Assembly: GCA_963575645.1 (NCBI GenBank)
Contig: OY754464.1
Span: 60,982,948 to 61,046,947, forward strand
From: Xanthostigma xanthostigma
Taxonomy: Eukaryota > Arthropoda > Insecta > Raphidioptera > Raphidiidae
Direction of reading: 5' to 3'
Length of the DNA: 64,000 nt
Shown: piece by piece, positions 2,854-64,000 of the stretch
How positions within the stretch are numbered: the stretch's first letter is position 1
Layout: every line of letters begins with the position of its first letter
Position numbers and translations under genes: made by a program
Notes under the pieces: model-generated
The model's database searches: none
Told to the model about the DNA's origin: nothing
Seen by the model: the letters and a program-made list of their open reading frames with translations, nothing else

Positions 2854-3470
2854 GGTAATTATACACTTTCACGGTCACCTGGTTTTTTGGCTCTAGAAAA
2901 TCGAAAAATAGATGGATTTCAATGATCTCGGTCTCAAAAAGTTCCATTTTACGGCGGATTTATGAAAAAAATTAGTTCACCCCGGAATTACAATTCGCAT
3001 ACCCGTTTATCATTCACCTCGGAATTGTTTTTTTATAAACTCCACATTTGCCCCTTCCCGTTTCACTGCGAGACAATTCGCATACCCCTTTATCGTTCAC
3101 TCCGGAATTACAATTCGCATACCCCTTTATCGTTCACTCCGGAATTACAATTCGCATACCCCTTTATCGTTCACTCCGGAATTACAATTCGCATACCCCT
3201 TCATCGTTCACTCCGGAATTACAATTCGCATACCCGTTTATCGTTCACCCCGAAATTACAATTCGCATACCCGTTTATCGTTCATCCCGGAATTGACGTC
3301 AGAATTAAAGTAATGAAACTGTGAGAAATATTGATTTTTTCAATTTTCGTATTTTTTTCCATAAATCCGCCATAAAAACGAAGATTTAAAAAAAAAATTC
3401 ATCGAAATCGGATGATTTTTCGATTTTCTAGAGCCAAAAAATCAGGTGACCGCGAAAGTGTATAATTACC
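2854..3470. mobile_element. MITE with ~57-bp terminal inverted repeats and an internal minisatellite
   Basis: The left end begins GGTAATTATACACTTTCACG and the right end is its complement (CGCGAAAGTGTATAATTACC). Homology continues inward through GGTCACCTG, the GGCTCTAGAAAATCGAAAAAT motif and a ...GGCGGATTTATG / CATAAATCCGCC pair. Poly-A flanks hide any target duplication. The 617-bp element has no transposase, so it must be mobilised in trans. Superfamily not determined. Confidence 0.75.
2987..3296 (+). repeat. 37-bp minisatellite, about eight units
   Basis: The unit contains ACAATTCGCATACCC, then TTTATCGTTCA, then CCCGGAATT or TCCGGAATT. Successive copies of ACAATTCGCAT start at 3073, 3110 and 3147, exactly 37 bp apart, with further units to about 3296 and one at 2990 separated by a diverged spacer. 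Because 37 is not a multiple of three, the array stays open in several frames and creates spurious 80-120-codon frames. It sits inside the MITE at 2854-3470. Confidence 0.9.
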
Positions 3471-12195: not shown

Positions 12196-12647
12196 TCGGA
12201 GGAACAGTTACCTGAAGAACAAATGAACCGAATAAATAACTACTTACGTTCGGTGAATATGACCATTAGTGGGAATAAGTTTTTAGTTAAATTTTGTTTT
12301 TGAAAGCGATGTTTCGAACACATGAATTGTATTTTGCATATCGAGAGAAACGAACCACTTTTCTTTACGTTTCGACGGTAGTACACGATTTTTTAACCAC
12401 GATATTTTTTGTTTAGGAAATAACACGTCACATTTTCATATCCTCGTAATCCGTAAATTCAGGCGTGAATTTTCTACACAGAAAACTTTTACAAAATAGG
12501 TATATAAATATAATTCGTTATCTAAAATACATAAATACATACAATATATATACTTTTGTACATTACATTTTACCTCATTCTAGCTGTGTAAAACATTAGG
12601 TATGTAAATTTTCGCAACTTTTTTGCCACGGGTGGAAAGTTATAGCC
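12196..12647. other. no gene seen
   Basis: AT-rich; nothing recognised. Confidence 0.35.
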
Positions 12648-13268
12648 CAAGAGCCCGCGGCAGCCAGACCTTCGTATTTTTATAAAAGCTGAAAGTTTTT
12701 CTATGGATGTCTCCAATACAGGTAAGAATGATCCCCACCCATGAAACCTGAGTAGTGGTGGCTTTGGCAGGTAACAGGTAGCAAAGGTGTATAAAATTCC
12801 ATCTCAAATTCGTCATTGTATAAAACTCAATTTTTTTATATTTCATTCGTAACAATATTAAAACTCGCGTCGCTCATTGCCCGACACTTAGAATGGTTCC
12901 AACCCCCTGCCCGACACCCTTAAACTATTATAATTTGTAATTATATTTACGTTATTTTATAAAAGCTGAATTTTATATATATATTTTTGGAGAACTATTA
13001 AATAATGTTTCATTAGTAGCCATTCTAAGTGTCTGGCAATGAGCGACGCGAGTTTTAATATTGTTACGAATGAAATATAAAAAAATTGAGTTTTATACAA
13101 TGACGAATTTGAGATGGAATTTTATACACCTTTGCTACCTGTTACCTGCCAAAGCCACCACTACTCAGGTTTCATGGGTGGGGATCATTCTTACCTGTAT
13201 TGGAGACATCCATAGAAAAACTTTCAGCTTTTATAAAAATACGAAGGTCTGGCTGCCGCGGGCTCTTG
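12648..13268. repeat. 621-bp palindrome with 249-bp nearly identical arms
   Basis: The left arm (12648-12896, starts CAAGAGCCCGCGG) and right arm (13020-13268, ends CCGCGGGCTCTTG) are reverse complements. The one clear difference I see is GCCCGACACT against GCCAGACACT. The 123-bp spacer is AT-rich. Near identity means the duplication is recent or kept by gene conversion. The same translated frame appears on both strands only because of the symmetry. No target duplication was found, so this is either a fold-back element or an inverted duplication. Confidence 0.9.
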
Positions 13269-13629
13269 TTCTATTAGCTAAAGCTTGGTTCTATCGCTCA
13301 CCACATATTATAAGTGCGTTCACACTAATCGAGTGTCTATTTTATGCGATATATTTATTTATTCACTCTGCGGATCTAATGCGCGATTTTCCCACAAGTT
13401 AATTTCATAATTTTAAATGTTAAAAACGAGTTAGTAAACCGTTCTGAAATTTTATGTAGGTACCTACTTATTGCAGATATATTACGAAATAAATTGACAA
13501 AATTTCATGGTGATTTGAGACACTTCTCATACATCCTTATTCTAGATGCGACAAGGGACATACTTTTGTCTACAATTGTATCTTCCACTCCCAAGCATTC
13601 AAATTCGGTAAAAAAACATTTATGAATTA
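13269..13629. other. no gene seen
   Basis: No supported feature. Confidence 0.35.
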
Positions 13630-33922: not shown

Positions 33923-34033
33923 TAACTTCCCGCTATTTTCGAGTTCAAAACGCTCAAAAATATATCAAATATAGCAAGAAGTTTATTTTTTAGCTCTTCG
34001 AGCTCAAAAAAAAACACTTTGTTACGAAATTTT

Positions 34034-34740
34034 CGTTCACGATATCTCATGAACAAATAAACCGATTTTGATGCGATTTGCGGCAGTCGACGCAATTTTT
34101 TAACCTTAAAAAGTAATTTAATACAGAAAAATCGATCTCATAGGAATTTTACGAGCAATTTAAAAAAAACTTTTTTTAAAAATTTTTCGTTCACGATATC
34201 TCGTGAACAAATAAACCGATTTTGATGCGATTTGCGGCAGTCGACGCAATTTTTTAACCTTAAAAAGTAATTTAATACAGAAAAATCGATCTCATAGGAA
34301 TTTTACGAGCAATTTAAAAAAAACACTTTTTAAAAATTTTTCGTTCACGATATCTCGTGAACAAATGAGCCGATTTTGATGCGGTTTGCTGCAATCGACG
34401 CAGTTTTTTTAACCTAAGAAAGTAAATTATTACAAAAAAATCGATTTGATAAGAATTTTACGAGTAATTTTAAGAAATTACTTTTTTCCTTATTTTTCGT
34501 TCACGTTATCTCATGAACAAATGAACCAATTTTGATATGGTTTGCGGCGATCGACGCAGTTTTTTTAGCTTAAGAAAGTAATTTATTACAAAAAAATCAA
34601 TCTGATAACAATTTTAACAGTCATTTTAAAAAAACACTTTTTTACGATTTTTTCGTTCACGGTTTCTCGTGAACAAATGAACCGATTTTGATGCGGTTTG
34701 CGGAAATCGACGCAGTTTGTTAAGGAGAAGAGCTGATTAG
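34034..34740 (+). repeat. 154-156-bp tandem array, five units
   Basis: CGTTCACGATATCTC-TGAAC begins at 34034, 34188, 34342, 34498 and 34654. Each unit carries the palindrome GTTCACGA-TATC-TCGTGAAC, then AAACCGATTTTGATGCG, GCGGCAGTCGACGCA and a T/A-rich end. The first two units are almost identical, the last three diverge progressively. Confidence 0.95.
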
Positions 34741-38142: not shown

Positions 38143-39352
38143 ATATTCAAAGCAATGGCACGTCATTCCGGTGTCGGAGAGGCAACCGGATGGCGAGTGG
38201 TAATCTGGGCCTATGAGTGGTGCAGAACTCCCTGGTAGCGGCCAAAGTGACCCCAAATGGACGGGGGCGGCGATATGGGGGTGGGTCAAAATCGAAAAAT
38301 GTTTGAAAAGGCAACCGGATAAAAATGCGGTTGCATTGAAGGAAATATCCTAATTATATAATAAATTTTTTTTGCCATCCGAAACACGCGGGCCGTTTTT
38401 GCACTAGCGAATAAAAAAAAAATAAAAAAAAAACTGAAAAGGCAACCGCTTCAAAATTAGTGAGCACACTTATTGACACCACCAAACGTTGGAAAAAAAT
38501 TGCCATCCGATCCTGATGGGCAGTTTCGGAGAAACAACCCCTCAAAGTCGCCGAAAAACCCTTTTTTTCGATTTTTTCAACAATAAGTAAGAAAAACACA
38601 CTAAAAATTGTTCAAATCGGATGGCATTCAAAATTTATACTGTCCTAAGTACAAATAATAGTGTGTATCAATGCCATCCGATTTCGATTAAATTTACCCC
38701 TATTTAGCCACCCCCAAAACTCATGAAAATAACAATTTTATGCAGCGTATGGCATTATTTTTCTTGTTATTGAGTTTTGGGGGCTGGCTAAATAGGGGTA
38801 AATTTAATCAAAATCGGATGGCATTGATACACACTATTATTTGTACTTAGGACAGTATAAATGTCGAATGCCATCCGATTTGAACAATTTTTAGTGTGTT
38901 TTTTTTACTTATTGTTGAAAAAATCGAAAAAAAGGGTTTTTCGGCGACTTTGAGGGGTTGTTTCTCCGAAACTGCCCATCAGGATCGGATGGCAATTTTT
39001 TTCCAACGTTTGGTGGTGTCAATAAGTATGCTCACTAATTTTGAAGCGGTTGCCTTTTCAGTTTTTTTTTTATTTTTTTTTTATTCGCTAGTGCAAAAAC
39101 GGCCCGCGTGTTTCGGATGGCAAAAAAAATTTATTATATAATTAGGATATTTCCTTCAATGCAACCGCATTTTTATCCGGTTGCCTTTTCAAACATTTTT
39201 CGATTTTGACCCACCCCCATATCGCCGCCCCCGTCCATTTGGGGTCACTTTGGCCGCTACCAGGGGGTTCTGCACCACTCATAGGCCCAGATTACCACTC
39301 GCCATCCGGTTGCCTCTCCGACACCGGAATGACGTGCCATTGCTTTGAATAT
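38143..39352. repeat. 1.2-kb palindrome with ~580-bp arms
   Basis: The left arm (from ATATTCAAAGCAATGGCACG) and right arm (ending CGTGCCATTGCTTTGAATAT) are reverse complements with only a few differences. They flank a core of about 50 bp around ATTTTATGCAGCGTATGGC. GGATGGCA/TGCCATCC and GGCAACCGG words recur in each arm. The two identical 81-codon frames, one per strand, are arm sequence. No target duplication was recognised. Confidence 0.9.
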
Positions 39353-51081: not shown

Positions 51082-51635
51082 ATCTTAAAAAAAAACTTCG
51101 GAGAAGTAAAAACTTCGTTCTGTGCTAAATTCAAAAACTTGAGGCGACTGAATCTTAAGATTATAACTTAAAAAAAAAGAATTTCGAGGCAGACAAGAAA
51201 TTGAAATCAAGCTCGAAATTCTGTGCGTAAGACGTCGAAAAAAAATGAATTTCGAGGCAGACAAGGAATTGAAATCCAACCTTGAAATTCTGTGCTTATA
51301 AAAGCTACAAGAGCAACAGCAAAAAAAAGTGCACAGACGGCGTTTTTTTAGTGATAACTAAAGGAGTTATGCGAACACCGTCTTTGCATTTTTTTTGCTG
51401 TTGCTCTTGTAGCTTTTATAAGCACAGAATTTCAAGGTTGGATTTCAATTCCTTGTCTGCCTCGAAATTCATTTTTTTTCGACGTCTTACGCACAGAATT
51501 TCGAGCTTGATTTCAATTTCTTGTCTGCCTCGAAATTCTTTTTTTTTAAGTTATAATCTTAAGATTCAGTCGCCTCAAGTTTTTGAATTTAGCACAGAAC
51601 GAAGTTTTTACTTCTCCGAAGTTTTTTTTTAAGAT
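51082..51635. repeat. 554-bp palindrome with ~260-bp arms
   Basis: Left arm (ATCTTAAAAAAAAACTTCGG ... GAGCAACAGCAAAAAAAA) and right arm (complement) are nearly identical and flank about 30 bp (GTGATAACTAAAGGAGTTAT). Each arm also holds two tandem copies of a 70-bp unit with GAATTTCGAGGCAGACAAG. The 116-codon frame is arm sequence. Confidence 0.9.
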
Positions 51636-53164: not shown

Positions 53165-53251
53165 TACGGATATTTAAAATCCCATGTACAAAACTGACAA
53201 CTGTTGTCGTTGCCGAGCGGGACGCAGCTCCGCGAGGCAAGACTGTAATAT
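53165..53251 (+). promoter_or_regulatory. candidate core promoter and 5' UTR, severed by the transposon
   Basis: GGATATTTAAAATCCC (53167-53182) offers a TATA-like box. GTTGTCGTTGCCGAGCGGGA-CGCAGCTCCGCGAGGCAAGA follows within 20-70 bp and is unusually GC-rich for the window. Just upstream GTGGTGGAAGTAC is repeated (53133, 53155). If the 3.2-kb element is removed together with one target copy, this segment joins directly to the ATG at 56468. The promoter role is inferred. Confidence 0.4.
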
Positions 53252-54150
53252 AAGGTCTATAAAGTTAGTATATCCACATCAAAAGCCCACGAAGTTAATA
53301 GTACCATAATTTGTTGCTAATTTGTTACCCCAAAACTGATTTTGTTGCTCTGACCGTTTTCGAGAAACAATGGATACGGTAGCGTTATATAAAGATGGCA
53401 TAGCCAGTGGTTGTATCTCTATAAGTAGCTTAGATATACTCATTATGAAAGTACCATAATTTGTTGCTAATTTGTTGCTTTTGAATGGTGTAATCACTTT
53501 CAGGCTAAATGATAAGAGATCGGTAGGATGTAAACCGATCGAAAAAAAATGTTAAAAACAATAAAATTCATAAGGTTAAAGAAAAGCCTATGACACGAAA
53601 CAAACACTTTATTGCCACGTTCCGAGATTAAAAATAAAGAATTATAAAAAAAAAAAACAAATAACTATATATACTTGTATTAGCCAGTACGACTCGAAGC
53701 GACAAATCAACAGCAACAAATTCAGTCTTTGCGCATGATTTTGTTGCTAATTTGTTGCTCTGAGATTATATAAAAATTTATTTTGTTGCTGTGCACAGGA
53801 AACAAATTAACGATGTGTTAAGGCGTGTTTCCACCGGAGGAACATTGAGGAACTTTTGTGTTGCTGTTGCTTGTTCCCGAAAATGTTCCACAAAGTTTCT
53901 AAATGTTTCGGCAACAAATGTCGACTGTTTCTACTTGTCGCCGGTTTCCATTTTGAGCGGTAAACTTCAAAAGAAAATCGGCAACATGGGGAAACAAATG
54001 CGTGTTGCTGCCGCAGTGGAAACGGATGATGCAACTTGGTACGTTGTTGTGTCTAGCGTCTACTCTAGTTGGTATTTCGGTGTGCAGTGAAGTGAAAATA
54101 AATAAACAATTAAATATTTTGTATTTATAAATATTTATTTAAACAATATA

Positions 54151-54186
54151 ATGCCTTTTAAGTGGACGAATGAGTTAGTTGTTGAA
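54151..54186 (+). pseudogene. first ~12 codons of a MADF-type accessory protein
   Basis: ATGCCTTTTAAGTGGACGAA reads MPFKWTNELVVE and then loses similarity at the deletion junction near 54180-54186. W-T-x-E-L-V-x-E is the opening of MADF (Myb/SANT-like) domains. PIF/Harbinger elements normally carry such a DNA-binding protein gene beside the transposase gene. The fragment is too short to be certain, but its place and orientation fit. Confidence 0.5.
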
Positions 54187-54615
54187 TCTAAACAGATACA
54201 TCAACGAATGATAAGAGTCGCCTGTTGCAAGGAATCGCAGTGTGATAAGGAGTCGTTCCAATGGAGAAATAGCTTGTCTATAATTCGTGTCCTCTTTTTT
54301 AATTCGGGGAGCAACTTGACACAATAGCCATTCCATATCGGTGCTGGACATTCGTACAAAATTTTGGACACTACCATTAGCTATTCTTCCCGCATGTAAA
54401 TCATCCTTTTTTAGTACGCTGAGTAGCTGCATGCCACCATGCTGCTTCCTTTCCTGAAGGCATGGCTTAACCCAGTACTTGTGTTTTCTTTTTTGCTTTC
54501 TTGAAGATATAACTATGTACGCCGCCGCTGCTAACGCTACTTCTTCATCTTCCTCCATATTCCCGTATACTGTTTCAGCAGTGGAAACACTAGTTGCGCT
54601 CTCAAGAAACAACAT
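54175..54615 (-). pseudogene. N-terminal part of a PIF/Harbinger (HARBI1-like) transposase
   Basis: The minus-strand frame from ATG at 54615 has an acidic start (NMEEDEEVALAAAAYIV), then basic KQKRKHKYWVKPCLQERKQH, GGMQLLSVLKKDD, NFVRMSSTDMEWLLCQVAPR-I, and ends ISPLERLLITLRFLATGDSY-HSLMYLFRF. This series (YWV-P-L-ER--GG, FVRM----E-LL--V-P-I, R-AISP-ERL-ITLRFLATGDSY-SL-YLFR) is the N-terminal half of HARBI1-like nucleases, with residues up to about 143 kept. The DDE catalytic domain that should follow is gone. The frame ends three residues after the junction, so an internal deletion fused it to the tail of the neighbouring gene's start. It has no in-frame stop before that, suggesting a young insertion. 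Confidence 0.88.
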
Positions 54616-56467
54616 GCGACTATTGACAATTTTAGTTGCTTGAGTGGAAACAAAAAGTTTACGTATGTTGCCAAAAGTTTCTACTCATGGCAACTAGGAG
54701 CAACAAAAAGTTCCTCAATGTTCCTCCGGTAGAAACGTACCTTAAGATTGATAACGTTCTTACATTAGCCAGTACGGCTCAAAGCGGCAAAACAACAGCA
54801 GCAAATTTATTCTTTGCGTAAGATTTTGTTGCTAATTTATTGCTCTGAGATTATATAAAAATTTATTTTGTTGCTGTGCATAGGAAAAAAATTAACGATG
54901 TGTTAGGATTGATAACGTGCTTACATTAGCCAGTACGGCTCAAAGCGACAAATCAACAGCAACAAATTCATTCTTTGTCCATGATTTTGTTGCTAATTTG
55001 TTGCTCTGAGATTATATAAAAATTTATTTTGTTGCTGTGCATAGGAAAAAAATTAACGATGTGTTAGGATTGATAACGTGCTTACATTAGCCAGTACGGC
55101 TCAAAGCGACAAATCAACAGCAACAAATTCATTCTTTGTCCATGATTTTGTTGCTAATTTGTTGCTCTGAGATTATATAAAAATTTATTTTGTTGCTGTG
55201 CGCAGGAAACAAATTAACGATGTGTTAGGATTGATAACGTGCTTACATTAGCCAGTACGGCTCAAAGCGGCAAAACAACAGCAACAAATTTATTCTTTGC
55301 GCATGATTTTGTTGCTAATTTGTTGCTCTGAGATTATATAAAAATTTATTTTGTTGCTGTGCATAGGAAAAAAATTAACGATGTGTTACGATTGGTAACT
55401 AACTTACATCAGCCATTACGGCTCAAAGCGGCGGAACAACAGCAACAAATTTATTCTTTGCGCATGATTTTGTGTCTAATTTGTTGCTCTGAGATTATAT
55501 TTTTGTTGTTGATTTGTCGCTTTGAGCCGTACTGGCTTATGTAAGCACGTTATCAATCCTAACACATCGTTAATTTTTTTCCTATGCACAGCAACAAAAT
55601 AAATTTTTATATAATCTCAGAGCAACAAATTGGCAACAAAATCATGCGTAAAGAATAAATTTGTTGCTGTTGTTTTGCCGCTTTGAGCCGTACTGGCTAA
55701 TGTAAGCACGTTATCAATCCTAACACATCGTTAATTTGTTTCCTGTGCACAGCAACAAAATAAATTTTTATATAATCTCAGAGCAACAAAATCATGCGCA
55801 AAGACTGAATTTTTTTCTGTTGATTTGTCGCTTCGATCCGTACTGGCTAATACAAGTATATATACTTAGTTATTTGTTTTTTTTTTTTTTAATTTATAAT
55901 TCTTTATTTTTAATCTCGGAACGTAGCAATAATGTGTTTGTTTCGTGTCATAGGCTTTTCTTTAACCTTATGAATTTTCTTGCTTTCAACATTTTTTTTC
56001 GATCGGTAATATCCTACCGATCTCTTATCATTTAGCCTGAAACTGATTACACCATTCAAAAGCAACACATTATGGTACTTTCATCATGAGTATATCTAAG
56101 CTACTTATAGAGATACAACCACTGGCTATGCCATCTTTATATTATAACGGTACCGAATCCATTGTATCCATTGTTTCTCGAAAAGTTTTTATCCTACCTT
56201 ACCGATCTCTTATCATTTAGCCTGAAAGTGATTACACCATTCAAAAGCAACAAATTATGGTACTTTCATAATGAGTATATCTAAGCTACTTATAGAGATA
56301 CAATCACTGGCTATGCCATCTTTATATAACGCTACCGTATCCATTGTTTCTCGAAAACTGTCAGAGCAACAAAATCAGTTTTGGGGTAACAAATTAGCAA
56401 CAAATTATGGTACTATTAACTTCGTGGGCTTTTGATGTGGATATGCTAACTTTATAGACCTTGTAAT

Positions 56468-56537
56468 ATGGTGGAATCGAAGTCTTCACCATTGTTTCTG
56501 CTACTGTGTTTCATCTCAGTCGCGTACGGAGCCGCGG
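56468..56537 (+). CDS. candidate signal-peptide first exon of an unidentified secreted or membrane protein
   Basis: ATG at 56468 opens MVESKSSPLFLLLCFISVAY, then GAAG. This is a textbook signal peptide: short polar n-region with a lysine, a hydrophobic core PLFLLLCFISVAY, and a probable cleavage near AYG|AA. GCGG|GTAATG at 56538 is an acceptable splice donor; without splicing the frame stops after three more codons (TAG). The codons are less AT-rich than the surroundings. The ATG overlaps the target duplication of the transposon ending at 56461/56462: TGTAAT-ATGG. The equivalent pre-insertion sequence would be GCAAGACTGTAATATGG, joining the GC-rich 5' flank at 53200-53251. No second exon was recognised, so the product is unknown. 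It could be a gene nested in or following Trpm, both on the plus strand. Confidence 0.45.
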
Positions 56538-57091
56538 GTAATGACTAGTGTTAAATATTAAGGGAAGTTAGAATATCGTCTTTATCCTGTCCCATCTCGT
56601 CGAAACAAGACTAAAAAATCTCAACCTGTTACGAAATCCTAAGAAAACTGTCAGGTTCGAGCAAATGCACTCATCAGTTGCCGCCTGCTTTACTGCATTG
56701 GAAAATAAAATTTTTCTTCGTAAAATATCATCTTGCAAGAAGCTAAATGTGAAATCTGTCAAAAGAGAAAAAAAAAACAATTAATTATTGTGAAGAGGAA
56801 TCTAGTGAAAATTGAAATTATGTAAATTTGTGTTTCAAAATGACTGTCGAGTGGTCCGTGCTCAGCCCGTAGGTAATTTTCAATTAAATGATAAGCCGAA
56901 TGATGAATGCGCGTTGGTCTTAACTCCGTCTAAATTAATTGAGAGATATAGGTGCAGATATGTGTAAACGTCTAGACTGTAATATGACGGTCTCTAGTTA
57001 AGGACGACTCACTTTAACGAAGACTCGGGTTTCAGCTAAATCCCGACAAAGAAGTCGACGTGCACAATTAATGTTTACAATTCTATTATTT
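56538..57091. other. no gene recognised; possible intron of the preceding exon
   Basis: Starts GTAATGACTAG. The minus-strand frame at 56568-56780 has no domain. No acceptor-exon pair was recognised. Confidence 0.3.
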
Positions 57092-57690
57092 TTGACGTGA
57101 TAACGTCTTATAAATTGATGAATCACCAATCTTATAAATTGATAAAACACCGGCTGCATGCACGAAAAAGTGTAACGTTCCTAACGTAACGTTCGTAACG
57201 CGTAACGTTCCGCCTGACCCTGTGCGTGCTTTTCTCGAAAACGGCCCTAACGATTTGGATGAAATTTACTGAAAAGGGATTTTGGGGGGCAAAAAATCGT
57301 TTTAGCTACGTCTCATCTCTCGAAAAAATCGTTTTCTTACAAATTTTATCATTATAAAAATCAATTTTTTGACGTATGAAAATACTTAAATATTGTAAGT
57401 AGGTTTTGGAATTTTATATACTTAAACAATAAAACAATTGTTTTCTAAATATTGTGACAGTTAATCTTTGAGACTTAAATAAATACGGAAGAAAGAAAGT
57501 TAATAAAAAAAATTATTTTTATAGGTGGTGAGTAATTTAATAAATAAAATTAACCTAAATTTGAAGCGAAAGATGCAATATCATAGATTCGAATTATTAT
57601 AATTATTATATGTAGAATTTAGGTTATGTATTACGGAATACGTTATCACGTAAAACTATCGTCCGTAAACCGACTTTACAGACAACCAAT
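57092..57690 (+). mobile_element. dispersed DNA element, copy 2 (partner at 26190-26755)
   Basis: Starts TTTTGACGTGATAACGTCTT and ends ACGTTATCACGTAAAACTAT, CGTCCGTAAACCGACTT. It has a 22-bp duplication of ATCTTATAAATTGATGAA near the start and an extra CGTAACGTTCG block (57185-57205). Otherwise it is collinear with copy 1. Confidence 0.75.
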
Positions 57691-57734
57691 TTTTTTTTTC
57701 AGTGGAATTAATTGGGTATTAAGTTTACTATTAA

Positions 57735-57830
57735 TATTTTTTTTTAAATAAGCTTAAAAAGCGTGGGGCGCTTTGTTCCACATTTTCGTACATCGAGCGC
57801 CCCACGCTTTTTAAGCTTATTTTAAAAAAA
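57735..57830. repeat. hairpin with 26-bp perfect stem
   Basis: AATAAGCTTAAAAAGCGTGG-GGCGCT and its complement flank about 23 nt (TTGTTCCACATTTTCGTACATCG). It stands next to the SINE-like unit to the right, with which it shares the word AAAGCGTG (57860, 58153). Could be a short MITE or a structured RNA locus. Confidence 0.75.
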
Positions 57831-58390
57831 AATATTTTTTACTTTTTAGTTCGATATAAAGCGTGTTTTTTAGTTTTTTTAAACTATATTTATTTTCCAC
57901 TTTTTAGTTCGATTTATTATCAAAAATTTGCCGAAAAAAAACAAATTTTTTTTCGGCGTGGACGGGATTAGAACCCACGACCCGTGATGCCGAGAGTTGA
58001 CGTCAGCAAAGACCAGTGCCTTAGACCGCACGGCTGCCAGTGTACTTACTTTGCTGGCATATTATACCGCTATATAAACCACGTGCTGTAGTCCAAATGA
58101 AAGTTACAAACATACATACTTATATACATACATACAAGTGAAGTTAATATAAAGCGTGTAAAAAAAAAGGTGCGTCGGTTCTCGGAACATCGGAGCTGTG
58201 CTCCTTACGCATTTTATAAATAAAGTATACACAAATAGCAACAAAATTATTAAATTTTAGTTTTGAAGTGAAACTTCTTTCGGTGCATTTTTGTGAATTT
58301 TGCGAAGGGGCAGCTTTTGATTTGCCGTCATGAGATCTTGTTACATTTTTGCGCAATCTGTACTCCGTTTATAATTCTTTGAATATATAG
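57831..58390 (-). mobile_element. SINE with tRNA-Leu-like head, minus strand
   Basis: The minus strand from about 58045 reads GGCAGCCGTGCGGTCTAAGG-CACTGG (A box) and CGGGTCGTGGGTTCTAATCC-CGTCC (T arm, B box), with a long variable region as in class II tRNA. The body goes on through AAAAATTTGTTTTTTTCGGC and TCGAACTAAAAAGT repeats to about 57850. The right-hand part (58050-58390) shares GAAGTGAAACTTCTTTC with 50388. Anticodon stem is imperfect, so not a functional tRNA. Confidence 0.55.
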
Positions 58391-58605
58391 CGGATTATAA
58401 AATCCGCGTACTGCGATAGTTGTTTTTTACTGAATTATAGAGAAATTAGTTCAATTAATACAAATAAACGAAAACGTAACTTAATCTGTAATCGCAGTTG
58501 AATTCCTAGAATTTGCAGTTTTCATCAATTTTTTTTGCTTATTTATTTATCTGTATCAACTGCAGCTGTAAAAAACTAAACTTTGCGTGTTTGTACAGTG
58601 AAAAT
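58391..58605. other. no gene seen
   Basis: AT-rich; nothing recognised. Confidence 0.3.
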
Positions 58606-58613
58606 ATATTTTG

Positions 58614-59199
58614 TTGTGTCCGACCGAACTTTCGGTTTCGGCCTAATTCGGCAAAAAAACCAGTTTCGGATTAGTTTCGGTTTCGACTGCCATCCGGCCG
58701 AAACAGAAACTACATTCGAGAGGTTTCGCGCTTAAATGAGACATGTTCTTGTTGTATTTGATAGGTAGGTATACTTATTAATTTTAATTTTATTGTACTT
58801 CGTTAACAAGAGAAGAAATAATTTTGTTCTTAAGATGAAAGAGTGTTTTTTTTTTTTGTTTGTGTGCCTACTTAAACATATGTTTATTAAGTAAATACTT
58901 TTTACTAAAAAGTAATTTTGTTTTGTAACTTTTAATATTAAAAAAGTATAGCGTTTGTGCTTTTTGAAATAAGGGGGGTAATAATATGATATGATAAGTT
59001 AATGATTAGTTAAAATAACAGAAGCTGAATGATTGATGTGTGATTGATTTAAAAATTAAAAAAAATAAAGACTGATTATGTTAATGTTTACTTTATTTTT
59101 CCCACGAAAACATGAAATTTCGGTTCCGGCCGAAACTGAGACTGTAGCCGAATATCGGTTTCGGTTTCGGCCGTAAAAACTAGTTTCAGTCGGACACTA
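58614..59199. mobile_element. hAT element (586 bp) with 8-bp target duplication
   Basis: Left end TTGTGTCCGACCGAAC, right end complement TAGTGTCCGACTGAAAC. ATATTTTG flanks both ends (58606-58613 and 59200-59207). Near each end GGTTTCGG/CCGAAACC words are reiterated on both strands. The centre is AT-rich and non-coding. Confidence 0.88.
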
Positions 59200-59811
59200 A
59201 TATTTTGCAAAAAAATAATTGGGAGGATGAAGGATAAGTGGTAGAATGCAATAAGATCATTTTTGTTTGCTTTGTGAATTTCGCGAAGGGGCTACAACTA
59301 GCTCGATTTTAATGATATAAAGGAAGAATCTTTGCAATCAAGTAAAATAACAATCAACACAATTTGTCATATCCTTTCTCAGCTACATATAAAATTTATG
59401 AATACGTGTTAATTAATGCAACATGATTATAAAGGTTCTTTACACATCGAGTCTGTTTTATAATTATTCTTTATCTCTTTTCATTCAGAAACACTTTCCA
59501 GAATTATTCTTACTGAATTTTAAAAGCGATAATGGAAATTAATTAAACGAAAACAGTCGCTCCATTAACAAACAATCCAATTACACAGTACATAACTGCA
59601 TCCTAAGACGAAACAGTTGTATTCGATTCATTTCAAATCAGTTCAATTTATTCGAACTCACGAGCTTTGTTAATTGCTTAAATCGAATTTCCGAACCGAT
59701 AATTCAATGGATTTACAATTGAAGAATGTCGTTCCGTTTCGAGTTTTTTGACTTAAAAACTCGCTTTAGAAAAATCGTAAGGCTTATACTTATCCTTGTT
59801 TTTTTTACCAT
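59200..59811. other. no gene seen
   Basis: AT-rich; nothing recognised. Confidence 0.3.
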
Positions 59812-60450
59812 TCCAACCCATAAGTGGGGAACGGTACTAGTTTAGGTCAAAAATCACTTTTCAAAATTTTACAATATCTTTTCTTTTTGTGGTTCCCCGA
59901 ATCCAAGAAAATATTTTGCGAAAAATTCTGTGCGTCTCTGTAAGCATGATTTGGGTCAAACGAATGAGCGGATTGAAGTCAAATTTTGGGAGGATGTTTG
60001 GTATGCAAATATGCAGAGCTTTGTTGTTTTTGGGGAAAATCGCCGCATGAGCATTATTTATTATTATATTTGCTATAACTGTGTTTTTTTATATAATAAT
60101 GGTATACTTTTCATAACGGCTTATTATTCTATTTATTTTTTCAAGAAAGTTATTTTTTTTCTAATTATATTTTTGGAAATATTTTGAATAAAAAAAATCA
60201 GCTGCTATTTTGTTCTGTAGATCTGTCAAAAATAAACTAGTTAAGCATGCTTTGATTAATTTTTACATGGCGAACATATTATGTAGGTAACCATGACAAC
60301 GAATAGCAAATTTATCATATTGAATACTAGCCATTACCCGCGTCACCTCACGCGATATCAGAAATTTTATTTTGTTTATTATACTATATCAAATGTCAAC
60401 ATTTTGAAGTAGGAATGGTCCCATCGCCCAATTGGCTGGAATTTTATGAA
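59812..60450 (+). repeat. dispersed repeat, uninterrupted copy (partner of 47840-48990, minus)
   Basis: Landmarks in order: CATTCCAACCCATAAGTGGG, TTTTACAATATCTTTTC, GTATGCAAATATGCAGAGC, TTTGGGGAAAATCGCCGCAT, CAGCTGCTATTTTGTTC, GCATGCTTTGATTAATTTTT-ACATG, TCACGCGATATCAGAAATTT and CCCAATTGGCTGGAATTTT. It provides the empty site for the LINE at 48027-48571. The 85-codon frame at 59930 is repeat sequence. Confidence 0.8.
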
Positions 60451-62480
60451 AATGATTTACAGGTTATTAAAGATCTGTTACTAAACAATTGCTAATGTTT
60501 ATAGACTGTTATTTCCTTAATTTTTTTGTTTGACGTGAGCAGTAACGCCATCTCTCGGTGTAAAAATGAAAAGTCAGAATGCATTTGTATTCCTGTAAAT
60601 AAGGCTTTTTATTAGATCGTCTGTCTCCCGAGCTCGGCGATCTGCCGATCGCCTTGATCAGATCGAAACGCCATTCCTACCCACCGCGTCTAAAAAAGTT
60701 TCAACTTTAAAAACGTTTGTCGTTTGAACCACTTCGAGAGTCGTTCTGGATGGAAATTATCTTGTGACACCTTTTGCGGTATACAGCTGTCATATCGTCA
60801 CGTCTCAAATTATTGTCGCCCGAGCGTTGTGTTCTGTTTGTCTAAAAGCTCATAATCAAATATTAGCACAGCACTCATCGCCTAAGCTGCCGTCCCATTC
60901 AGGGTCGGCTTAAAAACAATTTCATAACAAGAGATTCTATCTGAAGGTCACACAGGGGTTTTACGATTTCCTGTCCAGTGTTTCTAGAGAACAGGGCCGT
61001 CCCACGCATCAAAGTTTGTCAATTTTGAACCGTGCACAGTGCATATTATTCCTCATACATACACGATAATAATGTAAATCAATTTTTTTGTCTTTATATC
61101 CTTCCTGTTAATTGCAATTAAAAATTAAAGAAATATTTGTATTTTAACCGCCATATGATAACGTCAAAGACATTCATGCTTCTTTATCTATAGAAGTAAA
61201 TGTATAGGTACAGATTATCTTTCTCGTGGTTCGATTTCAATTTGACAGATCACCGGACGTGACACAGTAGATCTAGTTAGTCAATTACATTTCCGGTAAC
61301 GGCATAATTCTATGTTTGAAATAGAGAAGTACGCACTTTTGGGAATTTTTTTTCTCTTAGAAAAAACATTGTTTCATAATCTTTTTTAATGTAGGTATCA
61401 AGAAAATAAAAATTTTGGACATCCCTATTTGAAAAAGCTAACGAAAAAATACAATTTGGGTCTGTCAGTATATTAGGTATTTTTAATACAAATACTTATG
61501 TATTTGAAAAAGTAGCATTAATAGTATAGTTTATGTACCTATCTCGATCGTAATTGAAGATATTGTTCGAAAGTAACATTATGTTAAAACGAGAAACTAG
61601 CGAGTCATAATTTTATTATACGAACATGTTACAATTTAACATACTACATGCTGATTTTCACATAATATTATGCATATTTGTAATTATTTACAGTACACGT
61701 TCGACCATATTAGAATATGTGAATTATTTATGAAGGAAACGCCTACTATGTATGCCTTTGTAGCTCTCATGGTTTCTAATGGCAAGTGACAAAGATATTG
61801 CTGGTGGATTGGTACTTTTGCTTTACTTTACGCACTAGTGCGAACATACATGAAAAGCAACCATTTTGTAGGAGATCGTGCAAAAAAGTATTTTAAATAT
61901 TTTGTAGTAGTAAGATACTATAAAATATTTATACTTTTGATTAATTTAAAATTTATTTTATTACATCAGTCCTGATCTGTTATTGTTTGCACAAACCGTC
62001 GGTGGCCACTTGATAAACGATTCTCGGATTAATTTTAATTACTAGTATTTAACTATTATTTGAACAGAAATTATTGATCTTTATAGAGAGATATCCTAAA
62101 TTAATAATACAATTGATTTTTAGCTGAATAACAATGTAAACATCCATATTAATAGCGGAGTGTTGAAAAAAATCTATGGTTGTGGAAAGAATGTCTGGTA
62201 ATTTCTCCATGAATAATGGATCCCTCATAATTTTTTTACGAGATTTTGGATTTTTGGATACTTCAAAATTTGTTTATCAAAATTGATCCAGCTTTTTTAT
62301 TGATGTCGTTTTTTTTTGTTAGGGAGTTCTGATCCGGAAGCACTGCAGCCTCTAGCTAAGACTTATTGTGCCAACTCCTCATCTCTTATATCACCCGTTT
62401 TAGTATTCTTGTTCCTTGTACTAGCTTGTACAAACCGTGAATGATGAACAGACAAGAATTCTGGAAACGTGTTCTTTCGT
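60451..62480. other. no gene seen
   Basis: AT-rich stretch of 2 kb. Near 60635-60700 CTCGGCGATCTGCCGATCGC is a short palindromic patch. At 61826-61875 CGCACTAGTGCGAACATACA-TGAAAAG resembles 9282-9355. No coding frame has support. Confidence 0.35.
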
Positions 62481-62484
62481 TCAG

Positions 62485-63136
62485 GGTGAGTATTCCCAAT
62501 ACACCTACCTTGCAACAGCTGGTAATAAAAGATATACCTGTTAAAGAAGTGGAAGAATTTTGTTATCTGGGCAGTATAATTAGCAATAATGGAGGAGTAG
62601 AAGTGGATATAGACAGTAGAATCAAAAAAGCATCCCAAGCGCTCGGAAGTTTAAATCGTATTTGGCATTCAAGCATGATTTTCGAAAAAACAAAGTTATG
62701 TATTTTTAACTCGAATGTAAAATCGATCCTTCTATATTGATCTGAAACCTGGAAAGTGACGAAAGACATAACAACTAAACTGCAAATCTTCATAAACAAA
62801 TGCCTCAGAATAATCCTCATGGTGAAATGGTATAAACACGTGTCGAACAACGAACTTTGGAAACGTGCATGTCTTGAACAAATCTGTATAACTATAAAGC
62901 GTAGGAAATGGAATTGGATAGGACACACGCTACGAAAGACAGATGACGACATAGCGAAGAAATCCTTGGATTCGAATCCACAGGGATACCAAAAAAGAGG
63001 AAGACCAAAAATATCTAGGAGAAGAACTTTTCGTGAAGAAGTTATGGAACAAGAAACTACCTGGCTTCAAGTCAAAAATATGGCAAAAGATAGGACTAGA
63101 TTCAAAACTTTCGTAGAGGCCCTATGCTCCACTTAG
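62485..63136 (+). pseudogene. C-terminal part of an endonuclease-reverse transcriptase polyprotein, one nonsense mutation
   Basis: The frame (open from an upstream ATG at 62441) contains EFCYLGSIISNNGGVEVDID-SRI, KASQALGSLNRIWHSS, LCIFNSNVKSILLY, a stop at 62738 where GSETW would be expected, then SETWKVTKD, LQIFINKCLRIILMVKW, RRKWNWIGHTLRK and GYQKRGRPKISRRRTFREEV to a stop at 63136. The YLGS-I, R-IKKA--ALG-L, LLYGSETW, F-NKCLR-I and R--WNWIGH-LR blocks followed by KRGRPK-SWRR are the familiar region after the RT palm in RTE/I-like elements that fill insect genomes. The RT palm and endonuclease are missing by truncation. One TGA (for GGA) is the only break I see, so it is young. Confidence 0.85.
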
Positions 63137-63167
63137 GAGTTAAAGGAATTTATTATTATTATTATTA
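62485..63167 (+). mobile_element. 5'-truncated LINE with (ATT)n tail
   Basis: Coding similarity begins near 62485 and runs to the stop at 63136. After about 15 bp of 3' UTR, AATTTATTATTATTATTATT forms the tail. Target duplications were not resolved. Confidence 0.7.
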
Positions 63168-63678
63168 CCTTGGCTTTGTATTCACTGATAGTGTACAAAG
63201 TTTCATTAAAATCAGCGTTGCCGTTTACGAGTGATATAGCAGTTCAAGCAGACAGACAAAAATTCTCGAAACGCGTTCCCTCAATGTGGATACCGTTCAT
63301 TAATACGCAGAATACTCGAAAAATTCGCAAGAAAACGTATATTATTGCAGATAAATGTTCCGTTGCAAGTTTCTGTATTAGTATTTATTACATTAGTTGT
63401 GAAAATACAAGCAGAAAGCATCGAATTACATAGGCGTGTAATAAAACAAAAGAATGTATATAATATAATACATTTATGATGATTCAACAGCTGGCAATTT
63501 TTCGAATAAGCTTACAGAATCCACTCTTTCTCGTCTAGTGAAAGCACAAGGATATACAAACTGTTCTTTTTCTCTTCGCCGCCATTCCTTTTATCCTTAG
63601 TTCTTACCGACGTCGCGACGGTAGAATTTTCCATCGTGTTTTATATTTTCATTGTTGTCAAATCAGATATATATAAGA
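63168..63678. repeat. probable repeat tail; no gene
   Basis: CAAAGTTTCATTAAAATCAG, GATATAGCAGTTCAAGCAGA-CAGAC is the phrase usual in insect RTE-like tails. The frames at 63170-63487 on both strands are shadows of it. Confidence 0.35.
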
Positions 63679-64000
63679 CTAGCGGTCCCGTCCGGTTTCA
63701 CCCGGGTGTAAAAGAACGAATGGGGAAGGGAGGAACATGAGTACACACATTCATCTTAGTTTACCGAAATGAATGTTGTCTCCAAATTTCATTATGATCG
63801 GAGTTACCGTTCAAAAGTTTTTGTCGATAAAAAGCAGTATTTATACTTTTTTTAACTAATAAATTTTTTTTAATTAATTAGTTAAAATTAAAAGAAATTT
63901 AAATGTAATTCTTAGAAAAAAGCAATGTAGAAAATTAAAAAAAAATAAAATAAAAATATATTCGCCCAACGTGGTGCTCGAACCCACGACCCTGATATTG
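63679..64000 (-). mobile_element. Helitron with tRNA-like insert, running off the window
   Basis: CTAG at 63679-63682, then GCGGTCCCGTCCGGTTTCAC-CCGGG (3' hairpin on the minus strand), GAACGAATGGGGAAGG, ACATTCATCTTAGTTTACCG and CGTTCAAAAGTTTTTGTCG. The AT-rich middle and tRNA-like 3' half at 63963-64000 match the layout of 36834-37523. The 5' end lies outside the window. Confidence 0.8.
63963..64000 (-). repeat. 3' half of a tRNA-Lys-like sequence inside a Helitron (cut by window end)
   Basis: The minus strand reads GGGTCGTGGGTTCGAGCACC-ACGTTGGGCG: variable-region end, T arm with B box GGTTCGAGCAC, and an acceptor 3' strand able to pair with GCCCGGAT. The T stem has one mismatch. The rest is outside the window. 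Confidence 0.55.

Follow-up and report, generated by a model that had tools for sequence, protein, structure and literature searches.

The window analyzed here is a 64,000-nt stretch of the Xanthostigma xanthostigma genome (assembly GCA_963575645.1, contig OY754464.1, positions 60,982,948 to 61,046,947) with a base composition of 66% A+T. At positions 53252-56462 of this window lies a foldback element, very probably a non-autonomous class II cut-and-paste DNA transposon without recognized coding sequence of its own, and directly beside it lies a candidate first exon of a host gene. The foldback copy is real, and it probably represents a new family of a kind already known. It shows the structural features expected of a foldback: long inverted repeats that make up most of the element, internal direct repeats, and a target-site duplication. 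An earlier note on this DNA had proposed a foldback-type transposon, and such an element, with a repeated short word in its long inverted repeats, is well supported. The same note had described a single 3.2-kb element, which did not survive the analysis: ~0.92 kb within the left arm belongs to a second element nested there, and without it the foldback measures 2287 bp (~2.29 kb), nearly all of it arm.

The termini of the element, AAGGTCTATAAAG, occur twice in inverted orientation, at 53252 and at 56450-56462, with a 13-bp perfect inverted match. No further termini of the AAGGTCTATAAAG type were found in the window using a 24-position pattern that included one N and allowed up to 3 mismatches. 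The outer terminal inverted repeats that begin at these ends (53252-53468 on the plus strand and 56246-56462 on the minus strand) are identical at 214 of 217 bases. Outside them lie the flanks ...CTGTAATAT on the left and TGTAATATGG... on the right, which carry the target-site duplication on both sides, so that the inverted termini and the flanking duplication of the earlier note both held up. The length of the duplication depends on how the ends are assigned in this single copy. Symmetrical ends, at 53252 and 56462, give a 7-bp duplication, GTAATAT (53245-53251 and 56463-56469); if the element ends at 56461, with the last T counted as target, it is TGTAATAT, 8 bp (53244-53251 and 56462-56469). 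At the base composition of the window, the chance of a fixed 7-bp flank match is ~1.2e-4.

Inward of the left outer repeat is an inner left arm (53469-53673, plus strand), of which 53534-53665 recurs inverted at 55876-56007 with 93% identity. It is followed by the first unit of the 161-bp type, d1 (53674-53817, plus strand), which ends at the nested insertion. The remaining direct units, d2 to d6, span 54742-55500 on the plus strand (4.7 copies, or six units counting d1), and the inverted units of the right arm, i1 (truncated), i2, and i3, span 55500-55884 on the minus strand. This agrees with the earlier count of six direct and three inverted units of 161 bp, with the qualification that truncation affects d6, the last of the direct series, and i1, the innermost of the inverted one. 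The right arm alone contains a 185-bp tandem duplication (56010-56327, minus strand), whose copies at 56010-56142 and 56195-56327 are 95% identical. For comparison of the arms, the nested insertion was removed, leaving 1324 bp on the left and 963 bp on the right; the 161-bp units are more numerous in the left arm than in the right. Except for the one-sided 185-bp duplication and small indels, all 963 bp of the right arm find a counterpart in the left one, and the foldback therefore has no unique middle. The outermost units of the two arms pair up, i3 matching d1 at 143 of 150 positions and the other five direct units at no more than 130 of 150 (d6 at 80 of 104, over fewer columns). Folded as a single strand, 55064-55884 gives -371 kcal/mol, whereas 20 shuffles average -91; since this segment is an inverted repeat, such a fold is expected and is no evidence of function.

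The word carried by the arms is longer than had been supposed. The earlier note had counted about 33 copies of the heptamer TTGTTGC on both strands. This number is correct for the foldback itself, but the full stretch 53252-56461 has 35 copies (20 on the plus and 15 on the minus strand), 2 of which belong to the nested insertion. Nor is the repeated word 7 bp long: an 11-bp sequence, AWTTTGTTGCY, has the heptamer as its core and is present at 33/33 foldback heptamers (32 of them fit AWTTTGTTGCT) and at 0/2 of those in the nested insertion. The rest of the window has one isolated match to the 11-bp sequence, at 58237-58247, and the window total of 34 was reached in 0/100 shuffles. Because most of the 33 sites were multiplied along with the units, a fair count is provided by the left arm before the nested insertion (566 bp, with one unit). 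This segment holds 8 heptamers where 0.157 are expected, and 0/2000 dinucleotide shuffles reach 8. Conservation around these 8 sites extends from three bases before the heptamer through one base after it and falls beyond, although their contexts are not all independent because two of the sites lie in a 27-bp exact repeat. Within the clusters of the left arm, sites are spaced by 11 or 31 bp, and in one case by 42. The first heptamer stands at element position 60, which places its 11-bp site at positions 57-67. By analogy with Galileo, discussed below, the motif would be a candidate transposase-binding site.

Several results weigh against reading this locus as a mobile foldback with once-symmetrical arms and a functional array of binding sites. 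The copy is the only one seen, a single insertion in a 64,000-nt window, and a transposase with the same ends was not found, the host genome beyond the window not having been searched. Beyond the outermost pair, the order of the units is mismatched between the arms: i2 is nearest to d5 (159/161) and matches d2 at only 153/161, and i1 is equally near d3 and d4 (60/63). A strict correspondence of unit order between the arms is therefore rejected and is true of the outermost pair alone. Two possible signs of function in the motif also failed. Helical phasing at 10.5 bp was not significant (p 0.068; seven plus-strand sites), and variability in the motif columns was not significantly lower than elsewhere in the 161-bp units, whether five units were compared (3/44 versus 11/100 variable columns, p 0.33) or seven (5/44 versus 17/100, p 0.27). 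The motif array is far in excess of chance, but selection on the motif is not supported by the column-variability or phasing tests.

The palindrome itself raises the question of an assembly artifact. The window does contain three other near-perfect hairpins without a convincing target duplication, which could be artifacts or genuine. The foldback differs from these in that its arms have diverged by substitutions and indels, the 185-bp duplication is confined to one arm, another element sits in one arm alone, and a target duplication flanks the whole. These features make a folded-back assembly error unlikely, and we consider an artifact at this palindrome extremely improbable.

The nested insertion occupies 53818-54745 and is firm as an insertion, with TTAA at 53818-53821 and again at 54742-54745: the sequence of the 161-bp unit reaches the first TTAA and resumes past the second. 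The body between them (53822-54741) is 920 bp long, and its ends, GGCGTGTTTCCACCGGAGG and GGTACGTTTCTACCGGAGG, are inverted over 40 nt with 90% complementarity, TTAA included. Provisionally, we regard it as an internally deleted PIF/Harbinger element, a name suggested by protein motifs. It contains a 169-codon stop-to-stop frame at 54175-54684 on the minus strand, whose C-terminal half we take to be the N-terminal part of a PIF/Harbinger transposase shortened by internal deletion; database searches gave no support to this assignment. A plus-strand start, MPFKWTNEL..., at 54151 is presumably the beginning of the second Harbinger gene, and this frame had no Pfam match. In Pfam the 169-codon frame had one sub-threshold match, to another family (Nrf1, 17.6 bits versus a cut-off of 23.5), and among PDB sequences it had no relatives at E values up to 1. 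Stretches that fit a pattern from this frame numbered 5 in viral contigs (with a part of 128 amino acids as the query) and 39 in prokaryote contigs, and 0 were confirmed in either collection; a pattern made from the ends of the insertion had 0 matches in viral contigs. PIF/Harbinger elements duplicate 3 bp, TTA or TAA. The TTAA on both sides contains TTA as well as TAA, and a 4-bp TTAA duplication fits equally. Whatever its name, its presence means that the foldback is old enough to have been invaded by a second element.

On its right side, the foldback adjoins a candidate first coding exon of a host gene, which lies outside the element at 56468-56537 on the plus strand and is followed by GTAATG, a possible donor. 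The exon is a prediction from the sequence. An ATG at 56468-56470, whose AT is supplied by the final two bases of the right duplication, has an A at -3 and a G at +4 and opens MVESKSSPLFLLLCFISVAYGAA, a signal-peptide-like beginning with hydropathy up to 3.0 over nine residues; without splicing, the frame would meet a stop four codons on. Since the right duplication shares the AT of this ATG, the element apparently inserted precisely at the junction of 5' leader and start codon. Downstream exons were not identified by Pfam in the three plus-strand frames of 56466-64000, where DUF6451 was the only match. The empty site was reconstructed by joining 60 bp of left flank to 74 bp of right flank. 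The resulting 134 bp have 53% G+C and 12 CpG, values reached by 0.9% (G+C) and 1.7% (CpG count) of same-size windows elsewhere. With the insertion in place, the leader would carry 3.2 kb with 54 ATG triplets, and if transcription still starts upstream, a weak allele or another promoter is therefore to be expected. Rfam and tRNA scans of the window returned no matches.

Other repeats are present in the window. Seven hairpins outside the foldback were examined, and three of them (38143-39352, 12642-13274, and 51082-51635) have arms of 577, 255, and 247 nt that are 99-100% complementary, separated by spacers of 56-123 nt. These three lack the 11-bp motif and a convincing target duplication, and they are either very young or assembly fold-backs. 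Another of the seven, at 2854-3470, is a separate 617-bp element with ends GGTAATTATACAC and inverted repeats of 121 bp (81%), which enclose six copies of a 37-bp minisatellite; its candidate 8-bp duplication, AAAAAAAC, is weak and lies in A-rich sequence. A 154-bp unit forms a tandem array of 4.6 copies at 34008-34718. The reading frames at 62441-63133 match Pfam DUF6451 (E 6.7e-11), and we take them to be the C-terminal end of a non-LTR retrotransposon.

Searches for the foldback elsewhere covered collections of viral and prokaryote contigs, which have no bearing on its copy number in the host. A 17-bp terminus matched 16 stretches in viral contigs. In these stretches, blastn matched the ends of the element perfectly over 17-21 bp and, at the same places, in a few cases over 24-26 bp with 88-92% identity; the best E was 7e-4, and all were taken as chance rather than as copies; two internal blastn matches to viral contigs were likewise at chance level. 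Three other foldback patterns had 0 matches in viral contigs, and one terminus pattern had 0 matches in prokaryote contigs. The terminus AAGGTCTATAAAG had no match in the literature, which is weak evidence because only open-license literature was covered. In the same literature, the sole paper to match TTGTTGC in a transposon context deals with Sleeping Beauty and CpG methylation.

Outside the nested insertion, the foldback has no stop-to-stop frame of at least 120 codons, and its longest, of 103 and 90 codons, look like low-complexity arm sequence. Movement would need a transposase supplied in trans. A possible history starts from an ancestor with long, internally repetitive inverted repeats, whose arms would once have been symmetrical. 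Its middle would have been lost through an internal deletion that joined unit 6 of the left arm to unit 3 of the right arm, and unequal exchange may have multiplied the 161-bp units and reshuffled the inner ones. The foldback would have entered a 7-8-bp target immediately in front of a start codon. At a later time the second element, apparently the internally deleted PIF/Harbinger, would have invaded the left arm. As to mechanism, a transposase acting in trans may bind the arrayed AWTTTGTTGCY sites (11 bp each, with the first at element positions 57-67), pair both ends, and excise the element at its AAGG termini. The numerous sites would supply specificity in the recognition of the ends, much as the authors of the Galileo work propose that multiple binding sites may do (PMC3688188).

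Which superfamily this transposase would belong to is a matter on which we can offer a guess: a Mutator, Phantom-like enzyme comes first, a P, Galileo-like enzyme second, and a hAT enzyme third, none of them being established. That the element is a Mutator-superfamily foldback (like Phantom, FB, or Spectre) with the 8-bp duplication TGTAATAT is a plausible reading whose chances fall slightly short of even. Foldbacks seem mostly to be Mutator members (PMC4079207), and the published ranges leave room for this one, since Phantom duplications are listed as "not indicated/8-10 bp" with inverted repeats of 18-613 bp or none and hosts that include arthropods (PMC6446971), one complete aphid Spectre element has an 8-bp duplication (PMC6446971), and Muta1 reinsertions make duplications of 8 or 9 bp (PMC5225508). 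The 8-bp reading, however, requires ends that are unequal by one base (AAGG versus AGG), whereas symmetrical ends give 7 bp, under the Mutator range of 8-11 (PMC6446971), and no Mutator transposase was seen. A Galileo-like member of the P superfamily, with a 7-bp GTANTAC-like target, a first binding site ~60-80 bp from the end, and long repetitive inverted repeats, is a possibility that we hold to be rather doubtful. Of the specified positions in the Galileo target GTANTAC, the 7-bp GTAATAT fits 5/6; GTACTAT, which ends in the same base, is on record as a Galileo target (PMC2775673), and Galileo duplications are 7 bp, or 8 in three D. willistoni copies (PMC4168063). The THAP domain of Galileo-G footprints one site in the inverted repeat, from +63 to +80 (PMC3688188 section 2.6), to be compared with the first foldback heptamer at position 60, and tandem repeats of ~140 and ~210 bp lie within some Galileo inverted repeats (PMC3573991, PMC4168063). 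Yet the target match comes from one site and was judged after the fact, and the window has roughly one GTANTAY per 1200 bp when both orientations are counted. Beyond the 7 bp, the Galileo motif calls for AAN and NTT (PMC4168063) where the foldback has ACT and GGT, or 2/4 specified bases, and no THAP transposase was seen.

A hAT-type element, with a duplication of 8 bp and, like Herves, clusters of short subterminal motifs, seems unlikely. The ends of hAT elements follow the rule YARNG, and their inverted repeats are usually short. Here, YARNG ends would sit one base outward and, judged by eye from the flanks, would leave a 5-bp duplication, TAATA, which is not that of a hAT element; the inverted repeats of Herves are 11 bp long (PMC3143072). 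We think it highly unlikely that the family falls outside the described superfamilies altogether, with a transposase that would recognize the ends chiefly through the dense 11-bp AWTTTGTTGCY array rather than through the termini and would target the boundary between 5' leader and start codon.

Taken alone, the foldback is one copy of a type that is probably already known. Its wider significance lies in two points. On the question of why foldback-like elements carry long repeat arrays, work on Galileo proposes that ends are recognized through multiple binding sites; the foldback offers 33 copies of one candidate site with sharp boundaries, which would be testable given a partner transposase. 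In addition, the element appears to have inserted at a start codon, which offers a natural test of how genes cope when their leader contains a long palindrome. Among foldback-like elements, Galileo is a cause of chromosomal inversions (PMC2775673).

Among the known systems, the Mutator foldbacks Phantom, Tm1, and FB share composite inverted repeats with internal repeats, the motif of Tm1 being ~14 bp (PMC3169594, PMC6446971). They differ in that no Mutator transposase was seen with the foldback, and, compared by description, in duplications of 9 bp for Tm1 and 8-10 bp for Phantom versus 7 or 8 here (PMC3169594, PMC6446971). Tetris and DAIBAM of Drosophila virilis, the former placed in Mutator by its authors, are likewise described as non-autonomous foldbacks whose autonomous partner was not found, and they likewise have tandem repeats (primers "TIR-220") within the inverted repeats; their 8-10-bp duplications set them apart, again as compared by description (PMC4079207). 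Galileo, of the P superfamily in Drosophila, shares long and partly internally repetitive inverted repeats and a duplication of 7(8) bp (PMC3573991, PMC4168063, PMC2775673), as well as copies that consist of two inverted repeats alone and nested insertions by other elements (PMC3688188, PMC3573991, PMC4168063, PMC2775673). Besides the footprinted site, Galileo-G has two further THAP sites in internal repeats, which were bound in gel shift (PMC3688188), so that the sites described for Galileo-G are three, compared with 33 copies of one word in the foldback. The likeness to Galileo is one of arrangement and not of sequence, with a target that fits GTANTAC in part.
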